This document shows positions 28,901-35,469 of a DNA stretch of 43,403 nt, piece after piece. The notes beneath the pieces were generated by a model, which was given only the letters and a program-made list of their open reading frames with translations, was not told where the DNA came from and made no database searches. How positions within the stretch are numbered: position 1 is the stretch's first letter; the number at the start of each line of letters is the position of its first letter. The position numbers and the translations under genes are program-made. Origin of the DNA: Desulfocurvibacter africanus subsp. africanus DSM 2603 (lineage in GTDB: Bacteria > Desulfobacterota > Desulfovibrionia > Desulfovibrionales > Desulfovibrionaceae); the NCBI RefSeq assembly GCF_000422545.1, contig NZ_AULZ01000028.1:1-43403 (forward strand). The letters run 5' to 3'.

Positions 28901-29887
28901 ATGGTTCCTCCTCCGGCGCCGGACTTGTATCATCGCTCCGCCGCTCTTGAGCTGCTGCGGCAGCCATTGCCGTCACGGGATATTCTGCGGCCCGAGATCT
29001 ACCGGCGCACGCCGCTCATACGCGACATCGCGCTGCTGTGTGATCCCAACGTGGACGTGAGCGATGCGACCGTGCTCAACCTGGTGGTCAAATATTTCCA
29101 TGCTTACGTGCATCCCGGATCGCACAAGCATGCTCTGGATCTGGGGGAGATCACCGGCCTGTTCGAGCTTTTCGCGCGGCATAGGGATGAAGACGCGCAG
29201 TCCGACGCAGAGCTCATGGCCAGGCTGCGGGACTGGAGCTTCGCCTTGCGCATGCTGGTCGACGTGCCCAAGACAGCGCACATCTTTCGTTCCATCGCAT
29301 CCACGCCCCTGCCCTGGGACTCAGAGTATCGGGGCTTGGACATCGGCACCGGCTCGGGCATCCTATTGCTGGCCGAAGTGGTTCAAGCCTGGCGCAACGG
29401 CTGCAAAAACATCCATGCAGTGGGCATCGAGATCGACGAAAAAGTGGGTGCTCGGACCGGCCAGTTCTTCCGCGACCTGGGTGTGGGAGAGGTGGTTTTG
29501 GGCAACGCCAAGGAGCGTGAAGTCTACCGGATCATGCCCAAGACGCCGACCTTCGTCAGCAACGAGACCGTGGCCGCCATGCACGAACGCCTGGGCCGCG
29601 AGGATTTCACGCTCATCAACCAGACGCTGCTCTCGGTCTACGGCTCCGGCATCATGCGCGCGGGCTTCTTTCCCGAGGCGCTCATCATCTACGCCCCCTG
29701 CCGCAAAGTCTCGGCCATCCTGTCGCGCAAGAACGGCTTCCAGATTCCCCGGGCCTACCGAGGGCTCAGCTTCTATCCGCGAGCCGTGGTCATCGACGGC
29801 CACATCGTGCCGCTCAACCGCCTGGGCGATCAACTCGTGCAGCATATCCCCCTGGCTTCCAGGCGGCTGCTCTCGCGGCGCTGGTAA
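28901..29887 (+). CDS. Class I SAM-dependent methyltransferase-like protein
   Basis: A 328-residue protein. Residues 145-154 (GLDIGTGSGI) form motif I of class I methyltransferases, followed by a helix and an acidic strand end (VGIEIDEKVGARTGQFF, motif II). The first 140 residues are a helical domain, and the C-terminal 130 residues (FVSNETVAAMHERLGREDFTLINQTLLSVYG) cover the rest of the fold. No NPPY or other target-specific motif is visible, so the substrate (protein, RNA or small molecule) is unknown. The start ATG is preceded by AGAAGGAG with a spacing of nine. It is followed at 130 bases by a small membrane protein. Confidence 0.78.
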   Translation: MVPPPAPDLYHRSAALELLRQPLPSRDILRPEIYRRTPLIRDIALLCDPNVDVSDATVLNLVVKYFHAYVHPGSHKHALDLGEITGLFELFARHRDEDAQSDAELMARLRDWSFALRMLVDVPKTAHIFRSIASTPLPWDSEYRGLDIGTGSGILLLAEVVQAWRNGCKNIHAVGIEIDEKVGARTGQFFRDLGVGEVVLGNAKEREVYRIMPKTPTFVSNETVAAMHERLGREDFTLINQTLLSVYGSGIMRAGFFPEALIIYAPCRKVSAILSRKNGFQIPRAYRGLSFYPRAVVIDGHIVPLNRLGDQLVQHIPLASRRLLSRRW

Positions 29888-30019
29888 AGCATCCTACTCT
29901 GGTAAGACCTCCTACTCGTTAGAGACTAGGCGACCCTGCATAGCTGCATGCGCCGAGGCTCTCGCGTATGCTCGCGGCTACCACCGGCGAAAGACGGGGC
30001 CAAGGAGCAAGGAGGACTC

Positions 30020-30253
30020 ATGGTACTTCTTCGACGCGAGCACTACTGCAGGGTCTGCGGCACGAACACCAAGGCGCGGCTCGGCCCGGCGGGCATCATT
30101 CTGTGGACTCTGGCCGTCGTGCTTATCCTTTTCTCATTCTTCTTCTGGCCGCTCATCTTCATCTGGCCGGTATTGGCTGTGCTCCTGCTGCTCTACCCGC
30201 TGGGCCAATCCTGCCAGGAATGCGGCGGCCCGCTGGAGCGGCGCGGAGGCTGA
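30020..30253 (+). CDS. Small zinc-ribbon membrane protein
   Basis: A 77-residue protein: a short N-terminal CRVC knuckle (Cys 10 and 13), two hydrophobic segments in a row (AGIILWTLAVVLILFSFFFW and LIFIWPVLAVLLLLYPL) and a C-terminal CQEC knuckle. The two cysteine pairs would face the same side of the membrane and could together bind one zinc ion. The ATG at 30020 is set by GGAGG just upstream (aaggaggactc). I do not recognise a named family. Confidence 0.75.
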   Translation: MVLLRREHYCRVCGTNTKARLGPAGIILWTLAVVLILFSFFFWPLIFIWPVLAVLLLLYPLGQSCQECGGPLERRGG

Positions 30254-30277
30254 AGACCTCGCAGGCATCCGCGAGGA

Positions 30278-31495
30278 TCAGTACCTCCTCAGCTCGAAGA
30301 GCTTCTTGTTCTGCGTCGAGATAATATGGAAATACCTGTCCTGGGGGATGTAGATGTAGGGCACGTCCTCCGTGCGGCGGTAGAGGAAGTGCGACAGGAT
30401 CATGCGGTTCACGGCCTGATGGCCTACGATTATGATGTTGTCCGAGTTGCCCGACAGGTACAGTGCTTTCTTGATGCCGCGGTCCACGCGTTCCTTGAGG
30501 GTCGCGTAGCCCTCGCCCGCCGGGTAGACGTAGTTGTATTTGTCCGCGGCGCGGGCTTTGGACACCTCGGGCATGTTCTCGCGGATATCTTCATAGCGCA
30601 TGCCGTCGCATTGGCCGGCGTCGATTTCGTCGAACTCCGGAAGGGTGATGATCTCGCAGCGGTCCTGCATGTTGGCGATGGGCCGGGCCGTTTCCAGAGT
30701 GCGGCGCTTGGTGCTCGTGAACACGTAGGGCAAGTGCAGGGTGCGGAAATGGCGGGCCAGGGCCTTGGCCTGAGCCATGCCCGTGTCGGTCAGCTTCGAA
30801 TCGCCGCCGATGCGGTTCTCCAGATTAAAGAACGTCTCGCCATGGCGCAGCAGGAAGAGATTCTTGACCCAATCGGACACGAGCAGGTCGCGCACCTTGA
30901 CGAAGTAGGGCATGCGGCCGCAGACGCGCTCGCGCAGGATGCGGTTGTTCAGGCTGTCCAGGACGAAGTAGTTCTCCTCCTCCCCAAGCGGCGCATGGAT
31001 GTGCTTGTAGTAGGAGATACGCCTCTCGAAGCTCTTGTAAGCCTCGGCCGGCGAGAGGTGGGCGAACTCCGACAGCTTGGTCTTGCGCGTGATGCTTGCT
31101 GACAGCATTTCGGGATCGTCGTTGACGCACTCGATGAACAGCAGGGGGTGGTCCTTCAGAATGGCCTCGATGGTCCGCCGCCGCTTGCGGCTCACGTTGG
31201 TGGCGTCCAGGATGGCCACTTGGCCGTGGCTGGCCAGATAATCCTTGGCTCTTCCTATGTTGATGAGCGCGATGTGCTCGCGCTTTGAAGCGCCCTCCTG
31301 ATTGTCCGGGTCGTAGAAGTCGGGCCTGGAGGTGTTCTCCTTGAGCATTGCGCGGCGCAAGTCGCCGTTGTTGAAGATCTCAACGGCCACTCCTTCGCCC
31401 AGGAAGTTCTCCTTGAGCTTGGAGGCCACCGTGGATTTGCCCATGGCCGGCAGGCCGACCATTATGATGTACAGTTTACCCGTGTCAGCGTTCAT
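30278..31495 (-). CDS. 6-phosphofructo-2-kinase / fructose-2,6-bisphosphatase-like bifunctional protein
   Basis: A 405-residue protein with the same two-domain order as the eukaryotic PFKFB enzymes. The N-terminal P-loop kinase half has GLPAMGKST (residues 14-22), FNNGDLRR, and LDATNVSRKRR; the C-terminal histidine-phosphatase half has LLRHGE (216-220), RTLETARPIA, EFDEIDAGQCDGM, YNYVYPAGEGY and VGHQAVNRMILSHFLYRR (358 onwards). In eukaryotes such enzymes make and remove fructose 2,6-bisphosphate. Catalytic residues of both halves look present, so the protein may have both activities, but its true substrate in bacteria is unknown. ATG 31495 has GGGAG five bases upstream. Confidence 0.85.
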   Translation of the reverse strand: MNADTGKLYIIMVGLPAMGKSTVASKLKENFLGEGVAVEIFNNGDLRRAMLKENTSRPDFYDPDNQEGASKREHIALINIGRAKDYLASHGQVAILDATNVSRKRRRTIEAILKDHPLLFIECVNDDPEMLSASITRKTKLSEFAHLSPAEAYKSFERRISYYKHIHAPLGEEENYFVLDSLNNRILRERVCGRMPYFVKVRDLLVSDWVKNLFLLRHGETFFNLENRIGGDSKLTDTGMAQAKALARHFRTLHLPYVFTSTKRRTLETARPIANMQDRCEIITLPEFDEIDAGQCDGMRYEDIRENMPEVSKARAADKYNYVYPAGEGYATLKERVDRGIKKALYLSGNSDNIIIVGHQAVNRMILSHFLYRRTEDVPYIYIPQDRYFHIISTQNKKLFELRRY

Positions 31496-31633
31496 ATCAT
31501 CTCCCTGCGTGCGGTTCGATATCGTTTTGCGAACCGCATAGGCGATGCAATAAAGTTCAAAATCTCTTGCCATGAACAGGAAAAGGTATATATATCGCCG
31601 CGAACGTTCTACAGGACCAATAAAGGATCACGC

Positions 31634-31846
31634 ATGATTCCTGAATGCCCTTTCAAGAACGATTGCGCCTTCTACCGCCTGTTCGGCGCCGAGCCTCGCG
31701 ATGGGCTGCGCATGATCGTGGACACCTACTGCCTGGCGCCCAAGGGCTACCAACAGTGCTGGAGACTCGCCTATCGCCAGGACAACGGCGCGAGCCCGCC
31801 CCCCTACCTGGCGCCTTCCGGCCACCCCTTCCAGAGCCTCCGCTGA
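31634..31846 (+). CDS. Small Cys-containing protein
   Basis: A 70-residue protein starting MIPECPFKNDCAFYRLFG, with further cysteines in TYCLAPKGYQQCWRLAY. The spacing CPFK-xx-C-xFx ... YC ... C-RL resembles a family of small Desulfovibrio proteins of the form CPFK-C-FF...YC...CARY; four cysteines could bind a metal. The start has AAAGGA eight bases upstream. No function is known. It is followed at 150 bases by the first diguanylate cyclase gene. Confidence 0.65.
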   Translation: MIPECPFKNDCAFYRLFGAEPRDGLRMIVDTYCLAPKGYQQCWRLAYRQDNGASPPPYLAPSGHPFQSLR

Positions 31847-31995: not shown

Positions 31996-33666
31996 ATGAC
32001 GGCGCAATTCCCAAGCCAGCAAGTCACGCCGTGCAGACGCGAGATGGAGCGCGAGAAGCGCCAGAAGCGCTACGCCGCCGACCTGCGCGGCAAGCTTGGC
32101 GAGCTTCGCAACGTCTGGGATGCCTACGGGGAGCGGCCGGACGCACAGCTCCTGCGCAGCACCCACGGCTGGCTGCGCCTGCTGACCGGCCTGACCGCGC
32201 TCACGGGTCGCGAAAACGCAGCGAACCTTGCTCTCCGCGCAGCGGACAAACTGGCCACGTACCTGGACACGACCCTGTCTCCGGCGGCCGATATTGCCCA
32301 GAAGGTCGACGCGTTGCTTGAAGAGCTCGCCCGTGAACTCGGCCTGCCGCGGTCGGAGCATCCTACCCGGCTCAGCGAGATTGCGGCCGGCGAATTCTGC
32401 CCCATGGCGCGCACGAACGACATCTACGTCTACGACTCGGACTCCCGGGCAGCCAAGGAATTGGCCGGCCAACTCGAAGGCTTCGGCTACAGCCTGCGCA
32501 TCTTCCCGGACATGCTGGCCCTGCAGGATATGGTCATGGAGGTCCTGCCCGCGGCAGTCATCCTGGACAGCCCGGTGCGCGAGGGGCGCATGCACGAGCT
32601 CATATGTGTCATCGGCGAAACCAGCCTGGTGGAGAGCTGCGTGCCGGTGCTGGTAGTCTCGGGCCGCGACGATCTTCTGCTCCGGCTGCTGGCCGTGCGT
32701 TGCGGCGCGTCGGCCTTCCTTACCAAGCCCGTCAACCCGGCCGCGTTAGTGGACAAGCTGGACGCGCTCATAGCCGGACCAGGCCGCGAGCCCTACCGCA
32801 TCCTGGTGGTGGATGACGACCGACAGGCCGCGGAACGCACGGCTCAAGCCTTGTCCAATCGCGGTTGGCAGCCGCTTATCATGGGTAATCCCTTGCAGGC
32901 CCTGGAGCGCATGACCGAATTCCGGCCCGATTTGATTCTCATGGACCTGTACATGCCCGAGTGCAGCGGCATGGAGTTGGCCGAGGTCATCCGCCAGAAG
33001 GACGAACACATAGGCCTGCCCATCGTCTTTCTTTCGTCCTGCGGCGACATGGCCACGCGCATGGCGGCCATGATCCGCGGCGGCGACGACATCCTGCCCA
33101 AGGACATGGACCCGATAATGCTGGTCAGGGCGTTGGAAGGGCGGCTTGGACGCTCGCGGGATATGCGCAGGCTCATGGATCGCGACAGCCTGACCGGGCT
33201 CGTGAACCACACGAACATCAAGCTCCGCCTGGCTTCCGAACTGTCCCGCACGCAGCGCCAGCGCGCCACGCTGGCCCTGGCCATGATAGACCTGGATCGC
33301 TTCAAGAGCGTCAACGACACCTACGGCCATCTCACCGGCGACCTGGTGCTCAAATCCCTGGCCAAGACCCTCAAACGACGCCTGCGCAAGGTCGACATCG
33401 TCGGCCGCTACGGCGGCGAGGAGTTCGCGGTCATCCTCGTGGACGTGCAGGGCGAGCGCGAAGCCCTGGCCATCATGGACTCGATCCGCAAGGGTTTCGC
33501 CCGCATCCGCCATCGCGGCGGCGATCGCGAGTTCAGTGTGACCTTCAGCTGCGGCCTGGCTCTGTCCTCGGGCGGTCACAGTGCCGAAGAGCTATGCCAA
33601 GCAGCGGACCGGGCCATGTACAAGGCCAAGGAGCTGGGACGCAACCGGATCTTTGTCGCCGGTTAG
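31996..33666 (+). CDS. Two-receiver diguanylate cyclase (HPt-like, REC, REC, GGDEF), copy 1
   Basis: A 556-residue protein. Residues about 25-120 are helical; the block LLTGLTALTG (62-71) recalls the HPt helix but has Arg 61 where the phospho-histidine would be. REC1 (about 142-257) has Asp 191 and Lys 244 but lacks the full acidic pair at its start (VYDSDS). REC2 (about 267-385) is canonical: VVDDDR, Asp 317, Lys 369. The GGDEF domain (about 395-556) has RYGGEEF (GGEEF at 473-477) and an intact product-inhibition site RKVD (464-467). It should make cyclic di-GMP under phosphorelay control. AAGGG five bases before the ATG supports the start. A paralogue follows directly. Confidence 0.9.
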   Translation: MTAQFPSQQVTPCRREMEREKRQKRYAADLRGKLGELRNVWDAYGERPDAQLLRSTHGWLRLLTGLTALTGRENAANLALRAADKLATYLDTTLSPAADIAQKVDALLEELARELGLPRSEHPTRLSEIAAGEFCPMARTNDIYVYDSDSRAAKELAGQLEGFGYSLRIFPDMLALQDMVMEVLPAAVILDSPVREGRMHELICVIGETSLVESCVPVLVVSGRDDLLLRLLAVRCGASAFLTKPVNPAALVDKLDALIAGPGREPYRILVVDDDRQAAERTAQALSNRGWQPLIMGNPLQALERMTEFRPDLILMDLYMPECSGMELAEVIRQKDEHIGLPIVFLSSCGDMATRMAAMIRGGDDILPKDMDPIMLVRALEGRLGRSRDMRRLMDRDSLTGLVNHTNIKLRLASELSRTQRQRATLALAMIDLDRFKSVNDTYGHLTGDLVLKSLAKTLKRRLRKVDIVGRYGGEEFAVILVDVQGEREALAIMDSIRKGFARIRHRGGDREFSVTFSCGLALSSGGHSAEELCQAADRAMYKAKELGRNRIFVAG

Positions 33667-33804
33667 TCGTAGCCCTCGGATATCTCATGCCGGGGTCGTA
33701 ACTTTATCTTCTTTTCCCTCCTCTCGTTGGCAGACCCATGCGAATGGGATAGAACCAGCAATAGTGGTGGTTCCGCCGCGATTTTTGCCACGGATGAGGA
33801 ATGG

Positions 33805-35469
33805 ATGTCTCCGATCAGCAAAGAATGCTCCCAAGAGTTGGATAAGCCCAGGGGTCAGTACGCCCAGGATCTCAAGCGATCCTTCCGGGAAATCCGGCGC
33901 GCCTTCGATATATTCCTGAATGAGCCCCAACAGGAATCCCTGGAGGCCATTCTGGGAAGGGTGACCGAACTGGCCGCGTCCAGCGCCAGCCTGGGCTTTG
34001 CCGACGTGAGCGCCGTGGCCATGACCTTGGAACTCAAGCTCGCGGCCTGTCTGGGACGCGGCGGCATGCCCGGCGAGGACGAATACCGCTCCTTCCGCCA
34101 CCTGCTGGCCAGCCTGGAGCACACCATCGAGTCCCAGCAGCGGGCCGGCCCTTCGTTCATCATACGGCCCCTGGCCAAAATCGAGCCCAGGCCGCTCAAG
34201 CAGCGCGTGGAAGAGGTTCTGGTGGTTTCCGAAGACGCCCGCCACGCCAGTTGGCTGGCCAGCCAAGTGGCCAGCTTCGGTTACCCCGCGCGACACGCCG
34301 CCACGGTCAAGGATGCCGCCGCGCTGATCGCCACCATTAGGCCTGCTGCCCTGGTGCTTGACTGCGCCATGCTGGAAAGCTGCCTGGACCTGGTCTCCAC
34401 CCCGCAAGCCCAGGGCGATGAATACCATGGCGCTCCGCTGCTCGTGGTCACGGGCCCCGATGAATTGAACGAGCGGCTGGCCGCGGCAAGGGCCGGCGCC
34501 ACGGCCTATTTCACCAGACCGGTCAACGTGGCGGCCTTGGTGGACAAGCTCGACACGCTGCTGTCCTCGGCCATGTCCGAACCCTACCGCATCATGATCG
34601 TGGACGACGACCGCACCTTGTCCAGGGTCTACGAACTGGTTTTCCAAGAGAAGGGCTGGGTGACCTATGTGGTCAACGATCCCATGCAGCTCCTGGAGCC
34701 TCTGACCGACTTCAACCCGGACATCATCCTCATGGACCTGTACATGCCCGGGGTCGACGGCACGGAAATGGCGGCGGTCCTGCGCCAGTTCGAAAAATAC
34801 GTGTCCATCCCCATCGTCTACCTGTCCATGGAGGAGGACGTCTCCAAGCAGCTCTCGGCCGTCAGCCTGGGGGCGGACGATTTCCTGTCCAAGACCATGC
34901 GCCCGGACCACCTGGTGGCGGCCATCCAGAGCCGGGTGCGGCGCTATCGCGTATTGCGCTCCATGCTCACCCGCGACAGCCTGACCAACCTGCTCAACCA
35001 CACGAGCCTCAAGATCCGCCTTGAATCCGAATGCAGCCGCGCTCGGCGCATCGGCGCGCGCCTGGCCTTCGCCATGATCGACCTGGACCACTTCAAGAAC
35101 GTCAACGACACATACGGTCACCTCGTCGGCGACAAGGTGCTCAAGATCCTGGCCAAGGTCCTCAAGCAGCGGCTGCGCGTGTCGGACGTGGTAGGCCGCT
35201 ACGGCGGCGAGGAATTCGCGGTCATCCTGCTGGACATCGACGACCGGGACCACGCGGCCGAACTGCTGGACAGGATCCGCGCGGCGTTCGCCGACATGGA
35301 CCAGAGTGCGGACGGAGCCACGTTCCGAGTGACCTTCAGCTGCGGCATAGCCACCTTCCCCGAGTTCCCCGATGCCCACACCCTGGCCGACGCCGCGGAT
35401 CGTGCCCTGTACGAGGGCAAGCGGCTTGGCCGCAACCGCGTGGTGCTCGCCTCGGCCGACAAAGAGTGA
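33805..35469 (+). CDS. Two-receiver diguanylate cyclase (HPt-like, REC, REC, GGDEF), copy 2
   Basis: A 554-residue paralogue of the preceding gene, with the same domain order. In the helical N-terminal domain the HPt-like block LAASSASLG has Thr 54 in place of the histidine. REC1 (about 137-252) has Asp 186 but Arg 238 replaces the conserved lysine (YFTRPVN) and the first acidic residues are altered (VVSED), so it is probably not phosphorylated normally. REC2 (about 262-380) keeps VDDDR, Asp 311 and Lys 363. GGDEF: RYGGEEF (467-471) with an intact inhibition site RVSD (458-461). ATG 33805 follows GAGGA with a spacing of four; the frame opens to 33727. The pair arose by tandem duplication. Confidence 0.9.
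   Translation: MSPISKECSQELDKPRGQYAQDLKRSFREIRRAFDIFLNEPQQESLEAILGRVTELAASSASLGFADVSAVAMTLELKLAACLGRGGMPGEDEYRSFRHLLASLEHTIESQQRAGPSFIIRPLAKIEPRPLKQRVEEVLVVSEDARHASWLASQVASFGYPARHAATVKDAAALIATIRPAALVLDCAMLESCLDLVSTPQAQGDEYHGAPLLVVTGPDELNERLAAARAGATAYFTRPVNVAALVDKLDTLLSSAMSEPYRIMIVDDDRTLSRVYELVFQEKGWVTYVVNDPMQLLEPLTDFNPDIILMDLYMPGVDGTEMAAVLRQFEKYVSIPIVYLSMEEDVSKQLSAVSLGADDFLSKTMRPDHLVAAIQSRVRRYRVLRSMLTRDSLTNLLNHTSLKIRLESECSRARRIGARLAFAMIDLDHFKNVNDTYGHLVGDKVLKILAKVLKQRLRVSDVVGRYGGEEFAVILLDIDDRDHAAELLDRIRAAFADMDQSADGATFRVTFSCGIATFPEFPDAHTLADAADRALYEGKRLGRNRVVLASADKE

Follow-up and report, generated by a model that had tools for sequence, protein, structure and literature searches.

A bacterial homologue of eukaryotic 6-phosphofructo-2-kinase/fructose-2,6-bisphosphatase in Desulfocurvibacter africanus and its relatives

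Desulfocurvibacter africanus subsp. africanus DSM 2603 carries a real, complete, and conserved bacterial gene for a homologue of 6-phosphofructo-2-kinase/fructose-2,6-bisphosphatase (PFK-2/FBPase-2, PFKFB in eukaryotes), whose match to the eukaryotic enzymes is far beyond chance. Judged by its sequence, the encoded protein (termed P0001) is a member of the PFK-2/FBPase-2 family, and we consider it likely that it is a minimal bifunctional enzyme, devoid of regulatory tails, that sets the level of fructose 2,6-bisphosphate acting on fructose-1,6-bisphosphatase (FBPase)/phosphofructokinase (PFK). We infer its substrate, both activities, its target, and its physiology, the biochemical function with good confidence and the physiology with less. 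In eukaryotes, fructose 2,6-bisphosphate is the textbook signal for switching between glycolysis and gluconeogenesis; a control of these pathways by P0001 is plausible.

The enzyme type is already known; of interest here is its breadth in a bacterial group, with a double active site that appears intact. A passage of PMC9721465, citing Rider et al. 2004, names Desulfovibrio desulfuricans as a bacterial exception, i.e. a bacterial case involving the same metabolite. In a passage of a 2026 preprint (PMC12873801) that cites Michels and Rigden 2006, PFK regulation by fructose 2,6-bisphosphate 'appears to be a eukaryote-specific mechanism'. Among the matches listed, no title or abstract mentioned an assay of a bacterial PFK-2/FBPase-2; this absence is weak, as subscription journals are mostly uncovered. 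With carriers in which both sites look intact, fructose 2,6-bisphosphate signalling in bacteria becomes directly testable, and a bacterial origin of the eukaryotic bifunctional enzyme is a second testable question. Desulfovibrio laboratory strains that are genetically tractable would make such work feasible.

Domain architecture and family assignment

The original prediction had described a two-domain architecture like that of the eukaryotic enzymes, and database searches agreed with it. Pfam detected a 6PF2K domain (PF01591, E 7.1e-36) at residues 4-175 of P0001 and a His_Phos_1 domain (PF00300, E 2.4e-39) at residues 213-383, i.e. a kinase domain upstream of a fused histidine phosphatase domain, in the same order as in PFKFB. 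The top 12 matches in the PDB were mammalian PFK-2/FBPase-2 chains, each aligned in a single stretch from residue 9 to residue 385 or 391. The match to human PFKFB3 (E 3.3e-58, residues 9-385) thus runs across both halves, with 132 identities in 367 aligned positions (68/197 in residues 9-206 and 64/170 in residues 207-385), and overall identity to the eukaryotic enzymes is about 30-36%. P0001 has in common with eukaryotic PFKFB (PDB 1bif, 2axn, 1k6m, and 5htk) the kinase-then-phosphatase order, the substrate and catalytic residues, and both predicted folds, but with 405 amino acids, compared with 520 in 2axn, it is without the eukaryotic N- and C-terminal extensions. It also shows GHQAVN instead of CHQAVL and a Met instead of an Arg in the Walker A motif.

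Of the 28 NCBIfam families matching P0001, none of the 25 listed exceeded its cut-off. Adenylyl-sulfate kinase (TIGR00455) was rejected, with 14.7 bits against a cut-off of 138.7. The best match among the listed families, located in the phosphatase half, was the alpha-ribazole phosphatase CobC (TIGR03162, E 1.1e-27), and one could imagine from it that P0001 is a fusion in which an unrelated P-loop kinase is joined to a CobC or a phosphoglycerate mutase. Such a fusion is very improbable, given that the CobC score (96.7 bits) stays far below the curated cut-off of 162.9, that the PFKFB match is one stretch over both halves, and that the Lys and Tyr of the FBPase-2 type are present in P0001 and missing in 5/5 phosphatase-only paralogues. 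The residues also argue against an identity as CobC itself, as they do against 2,3-bisphosphoglycerate-dependent phosphoglycerate mutase (TIGR01258), which was rejected at 21.4 bits for a cut-off of 81.7.

Gene and immediate surroundings

The gene is located on the minus strand of the window, the whole stretch of 43,403 nucleotides that was analysed; the original prediction had given no strand. An open reading frame covers 30278-31573, and the likely start is the ATG at 31495, which has a Shine-Dalgarno-like AGGGAG (31501-31506, minus strand) 5 bases upstream, while sequence reading found no such motif for the in-frame upstream ATG at 31573. This spacing makes 30278-31495, the coordinates proposed originally, the likely gene; stop codon included, they hold the coding sequence of the 405-amino-acid bifunctional 6-phosphofructo-2-kinase/fructose-2,6-bisphosphatase homologue.

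The probable flanking genes (28901-29887, 29948-30253, 31996-33666, and 33727-35469) are all on the plus strand. The last two are adjacent and alike (556 and 580 amino acids), and receiver-like and GGEEF stretches can be recognized in them by eye. None of 17 central-carbon proteins used as queries matched anywhere in the window, and searches of it for tRNAs (ARAGORN) and structured RNAs (Rfam) detected none. Region 30150-31750 shows three promoter-like patterns and one that resembles a terminator; as they all lie within the P0001 gene, they were given no weight.

Active-site residues of the two halves

Residue conservation was counted in 57 bacterial full-length proteins, P0001 included, that were mapped with P0001 onto PFKFB3. 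They derive from 65 loci, from which phosphatase-only (L002, L003, L004, L032, and L033) and incomplete (L052, L054, and L055) proteins were left out; L037 and L058 are identical in sequence, so there are 56 distinct proteins. Since the extraction pattern demanded the Walker A glycines, proline, and lysine, the invariance of these residues is by construction.

The kinase (PFK-2) half, as delimited by PF01591 and the predicted fold, comprises residues 1-206 (30878-31495, minus strand, as for all features below). Its Walker A motif GLPAMGKS (residues 14-21; 31433-31456) aligns with GLPARGKT of PFKFB3, and its Walker B region DATN (residues 97-100; 31196-31207) aligns with the same four residues of PFKFB3. 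In the segment RISYY (residues 159-163; 31007-31021), Arg159 and Tyr163 align with an Arg and a Tyr of PFKFB3 that bind fructose 6-phosphate. The counterparts of PFKFB3 Arg74, Arg75, Arg98, Lys168, Arg189, and Tyr193 are kept in 57/57 proteins, that of Arg132 in 55/57, and that of Thr126 in 49/57; these are published PFKFB3 numbers, the chain numbers in our alignment running one above them. In P0001 numbering, Arg47, Arg48, Arg72, Asp97, Lys138, Arg159, and Tyr163 are found in all 57 bacterial proteins, Arg105 in 55 (Gln in 2), and Thr99 in 49 (Ala in 7, Ser in 1). The Walker A and B residues and the Arg, Lys, Tyr, and Thr of the kinase that bind fructose 6-phosphate are thus present in P0001, with a single substitution, Met for the Walker A Arg of PFKFB3. 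Five other proteins share this Met, and Ser and Thr occupy the position in one protein each.

The phosphatase (FBPase-2) half, as delimited by PF00300 and the predicted fold, comprises residues 207-405 (30281-30877). It contains RHGE (residues 217-220; 30836-30847) with the predicted catalytic His218, a segment from Lys319 to Tyr330 (KYNYVYPAGEGY; 30506-30541), and HQAVNR (residues 359-364; 30404-30421), in which the second catalytic His, the Gln, and the Arg were located by alignment. In FBPase-2, an Arg-His, a Glu, and a His are catalytic, and an Arg, a Lys, a Tyr, a Gln, and a further Arg bind the bisphosphate; Lys319 and Tyr330 correspond to the Lys and Tyr of that bisphosphate site. Arg217, His218, Asn224, Arg265, Glu290, Arg315, Lys319, Tyr330, His359, and Arg364 occur in 57/57 proteins, and the position of Gln360 holds Gln in 41/57 and Arg in 16/57. 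Gly219 of the RHG motif is Gly in 39/57 proteins and Ala, Ser, or Thr in 18/57, with the catalytic His still present; 14 of these 18 homologues are L038-L051, and the rest are L009, L022, L028, and L056. Arg265 occupies the site of a Ser in PFKFB3, a Ser associated with the weak phosphatase of PFKFB3, which suggests that the phosphatase half of P0001 may well be active.

As in CobC, PspA, and GpmB (branch-1 histidine phosphatases), the C-terminal half combines a like fold with the Arg-His, Glu, and His core. Five phosphatase-only paralogues, 3 from the genome of the window and 2 from relatives, served as a control; they have no kinase half and do contain the Arg-His, the Glu, and the second His, but Lys319 and Tyr330 are missing in 5/5 and Gln360 in 4/5, whereas P0001 has all three. 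On these alignments, the Lys319/Tyr330 contrast distinguishes P0001 from ordinary histidine phosphatases better than the fold does.

It had been predicted that the catalytic residues are kept in both halves, and the alignment supports this; Asp97, Lys138, His218, Glu290, and His359 occur in 57/57 proteins, the Walker A residues of the extraction pattern not being counted. The alignment of the substrate-binding residues with PFKFB3, a check set beforehand, likewise revealed no loss at the compared positions. Many eukaryotic isoforms are monofunctional through the loss of key residues, and one half of P0001 could similarly be silent, so that the protein would in effect work as a fructose-2,6-bisphosphatase or a kinase alone; the Met of the Walker A motif in P0001 and five other proteins would fit this. 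The five invariant residues just named speak against it, and we regard a silent half as quite unlikely.

Substrate drift is a somewhat more serious alternative, albeit still an unlikely one: the protein could be a bifunctional kinase/phosphatase with the same chemistry, adding a second phosphate to another ketose phosphate (e.g. sedoheptulose 7-phosphate or tagatose 6-phosphate) and taking it off again, with the product serving as a signal or an intermediate. The modest identity to the eukaryotic enzymes leaves room for such drift, Thr99 is replaced by Ala in 7/57 proteins and Gln360 by Arg in 16/57, and transketolase and rpe genes are found beside the gene in 2 genomes (L091 and L092). Nevertheless, the compared Arg, Lys, and Tyr residues of both substrate sites are kept in 55-57 of the 57 proteins, and Lys319 and Tyr330 are as in PFKFB, unlike in the paralogues. 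Fructose 6-phosphate and fructose 2,6-bisphosphate seem to us the probable substrates.

Predicted structures

The kinase half alone was modelled by AlphaFold2 with a pLDDT of 90.8 and a pTM of 0.89 (9 sequences), and its model superposes on the PFKFB3 kinase domain with a Z of 28.8 and an rmsd of 1.5 Å over 201 residues; the second-ranked family is APS kinase, with a Z of 15.8. The phosphatase half as predicted matches the rat liver FBPase-2 domain (Z 26.7, rmsd 1.8 Å, 186 residues), but other family members come near, e.g. phosphoserine phosphatase with a Z of 25.1, so the fold alone cannot decide the specificity of this half. Full-length P0001 was modelled with a mean pLDDT of 91.5 and a pTM of 0.87 (11 sequences). 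The rmsd of this whole model to the PFKFB entries, 15.4-16.6 Å over 386-393 residues, indicates that it arranges the two halves unlike the eukaryotic enzymes, each half superposing well; it is a monomer model (11 sequences), and the different arrangement need not reflect a real difference.

Distribution among bacteria and phylogeny

The genome of the window encodes one full-length copy in addition to its 3 phosphatase-only paralogues. Within the family and order, 28 of 59 genomes (that of the window among them) have a full-length homologue; those of the other 27 are 46-65% identical to P0001 over nearly the full length. Among genomes drawn from the phylum, PF01591 exceeded its cut-off in 43/297 (own included), each time in an open reading frame of at least 405 amino acids, and both halves were present in all ten of these loci that were fetched. 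None of the 14 control genomes was positive at E 1e-10; 3/14 were at a looser limit, none of them over the cut-off. A pattern scan (contigs of close relatives) gave 22 loci, of which 12 belong to Desulfobacteraceae/Syntrophaceae/Smithellaceae, 9 are assigned to Deltaproteobacteria only, and 1 is from Candidatus Wolfebacteria.

This distribution bears on a trivial explanation, namely that the gene is a eukaryotic contaminant of the assembly, for which nothing but the family name speaks. The contig's genome is rated 100% complete with 0.28% contamination, and the tree places PFKFB3 outside the 56-row group containing P0001 (support 100/99). Homologues in 28/59 genomes of the family and order and the kinase family in 43/297 of the phylum argue against contamination as well, and the 27 relatives with 46-65% identity rule out both contamination and chance, so we give this explanation practically no credence.

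Mobile elements matched only in part: none of the 67 plasmid and 14 phage records that match P0001 spans more than 80% of the query in one place, and in the rows listed (15 of the 67 plasmid and all 14 phage records) the match begins at residue 175 or later, on the phosphatase side. A scan for viral relatives, intended to supply eukaryote-like sequences for the tree, gave none that could be confirmed.

The Candidatus Wolfebacteria locus (L053, 1025-2224) is a lone candidate-phylum homologue; in its phylum, 1/286 genomes was positive, namely its own. The L053 protein has the same two Pfam domains as P0001 and keeps the compared phosphatase residues, with Arg for Gln360. It is closer than P0001 to the eukaryotic enzymes (PDB E 6e-81 versus 3e-58; Pfam 191.5 bits), and the tree joins it to PFKFB3 on long branches, with a support of 100/99. 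A transfer from or to a eukaryote is possible, judging from these similarities; as the tree contains a single eukaryotic row, the root, direction, and date of transfer are unreadable from it.

Gene neighbourhood in relatives

In several lineages, the homologue lies close to genes of central carbon metabolism. In five loci of a Syntrophaceae/Smithellaceae group (L043, L045, L046, L047, and L050, several of them near-identical), tpi, pgk, and gap are located upstream on the opposite strand, and in 4/5 a pyruvate kinase gene is nearby on the same strand. In L038, L039, L041, L044, and L051, ppdk and a GTP-type pepck are upstream on the opposite strand; L080, probably the same genome as L041, also has ppdk. 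NCBIfam scores exceeded the cut-off for tpi, gap, and pyk of L043 and for ppdk of L038, whereas L043 pgk matched a fusion model only and L038 pepck, cut by the end of the stretch, reached 449.7 for a cut-off of 504. In addition, 3 genomes (L086, L093, and L100) have malQ as the next gene upstream, on the same strand, and 2 genomes (L077 and L084) have fbp at a distance of 2.5-3.1 kb upstream, again on the same strand.

Central-carbon genes were found near the homologue in 11/36 test stretches compared with 1/32 control stretches (p 0.003, 17 queries); the test stretches were picked by us among carriers with contig room, and the controls were positioned manually, using round offsets, on the contigs of the test stretches in 32 of these 36 genomes. 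However, five queries (malQ, tkt, rpe, eno, and pgm) came from test loci, and without them the numbers are 3/36 versus 1/32, which is not significant (p 0.35). One of the 3 positive stretches is L080, probably the same genome as one behind the lineage of the ppdk query. The association with glycolytic and gluconeogenic genes is lineage-bound and suggestive.

Proposed function and possible targets

As a bifunctional enzyme, P0001 would use its N-terminal half to phosphorylate fructose 6-phosphate at the 2-hydroxyl with ATP as the donor, and its C-terminal half would take the same phosphate off via a phosphohistidine formed at His218. The ratio between these activities would fix how much fructose 2,6-bisphosphate the cell contains. 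As P0001 lacks the N- and C-terminal regulatory tails of the eukaryotic enzymes, metabolites would set this ratio through direct action on the catalytic core. Fructose 2,6-bisphosphate would most plausibly inhibit class I fructose-1,6-bisphosphatase and/or tune PFK or pyruvate kinase, and the outcome would be a choice between glycogen or sugar breakdown and gluconeogenesis. A wider view, which we advance tentatively and with slightly more doubt than conviction, is that a broad group of anaerobic bacteria, comprising sulfate reducers and syntrophs, uses fructose 2,6-bisphosphate as a working, regulated signal. An ancestral bifunctional enzyme without tails would make and remove this signal, whose target would be class I FBPase, PFK, or pyruvate kinase. 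Bacteria would then share the supposedly eukaryotic circuit, and the enzyme of eukaryotes may have its origin in a bacterial one of this kind.

The genome of the window encodes candidate targets, i.e. 2 PFKs and 1 class I FBPase (359 amino acids), along with PGI, a glycogen phosphorylase, a class II aldolase, and a GlgA-family gene (glycogen synthase). Both PFKs have GGDGT and PKTIDND motifs, and from the GGDGT, read by eye, we take them to be ATP-type. None of three gene families tracks the full-length gene: PFK is present in 25/28 carriers and 30/31 non-carriers, class I FBPase in 26/28 and 26/31, and the GlgA family in 23/28 and 24/31, respectively. Three carriers, namely G003 (L026), G005 (L020), and G052 (L006), whose genomes are 89% (G003) and 98 and 99% (G005 and G052) complete, have a class I FBPase and no detected PFK (PF00365); should all carriers have a single target in common, this would point to FBPase.
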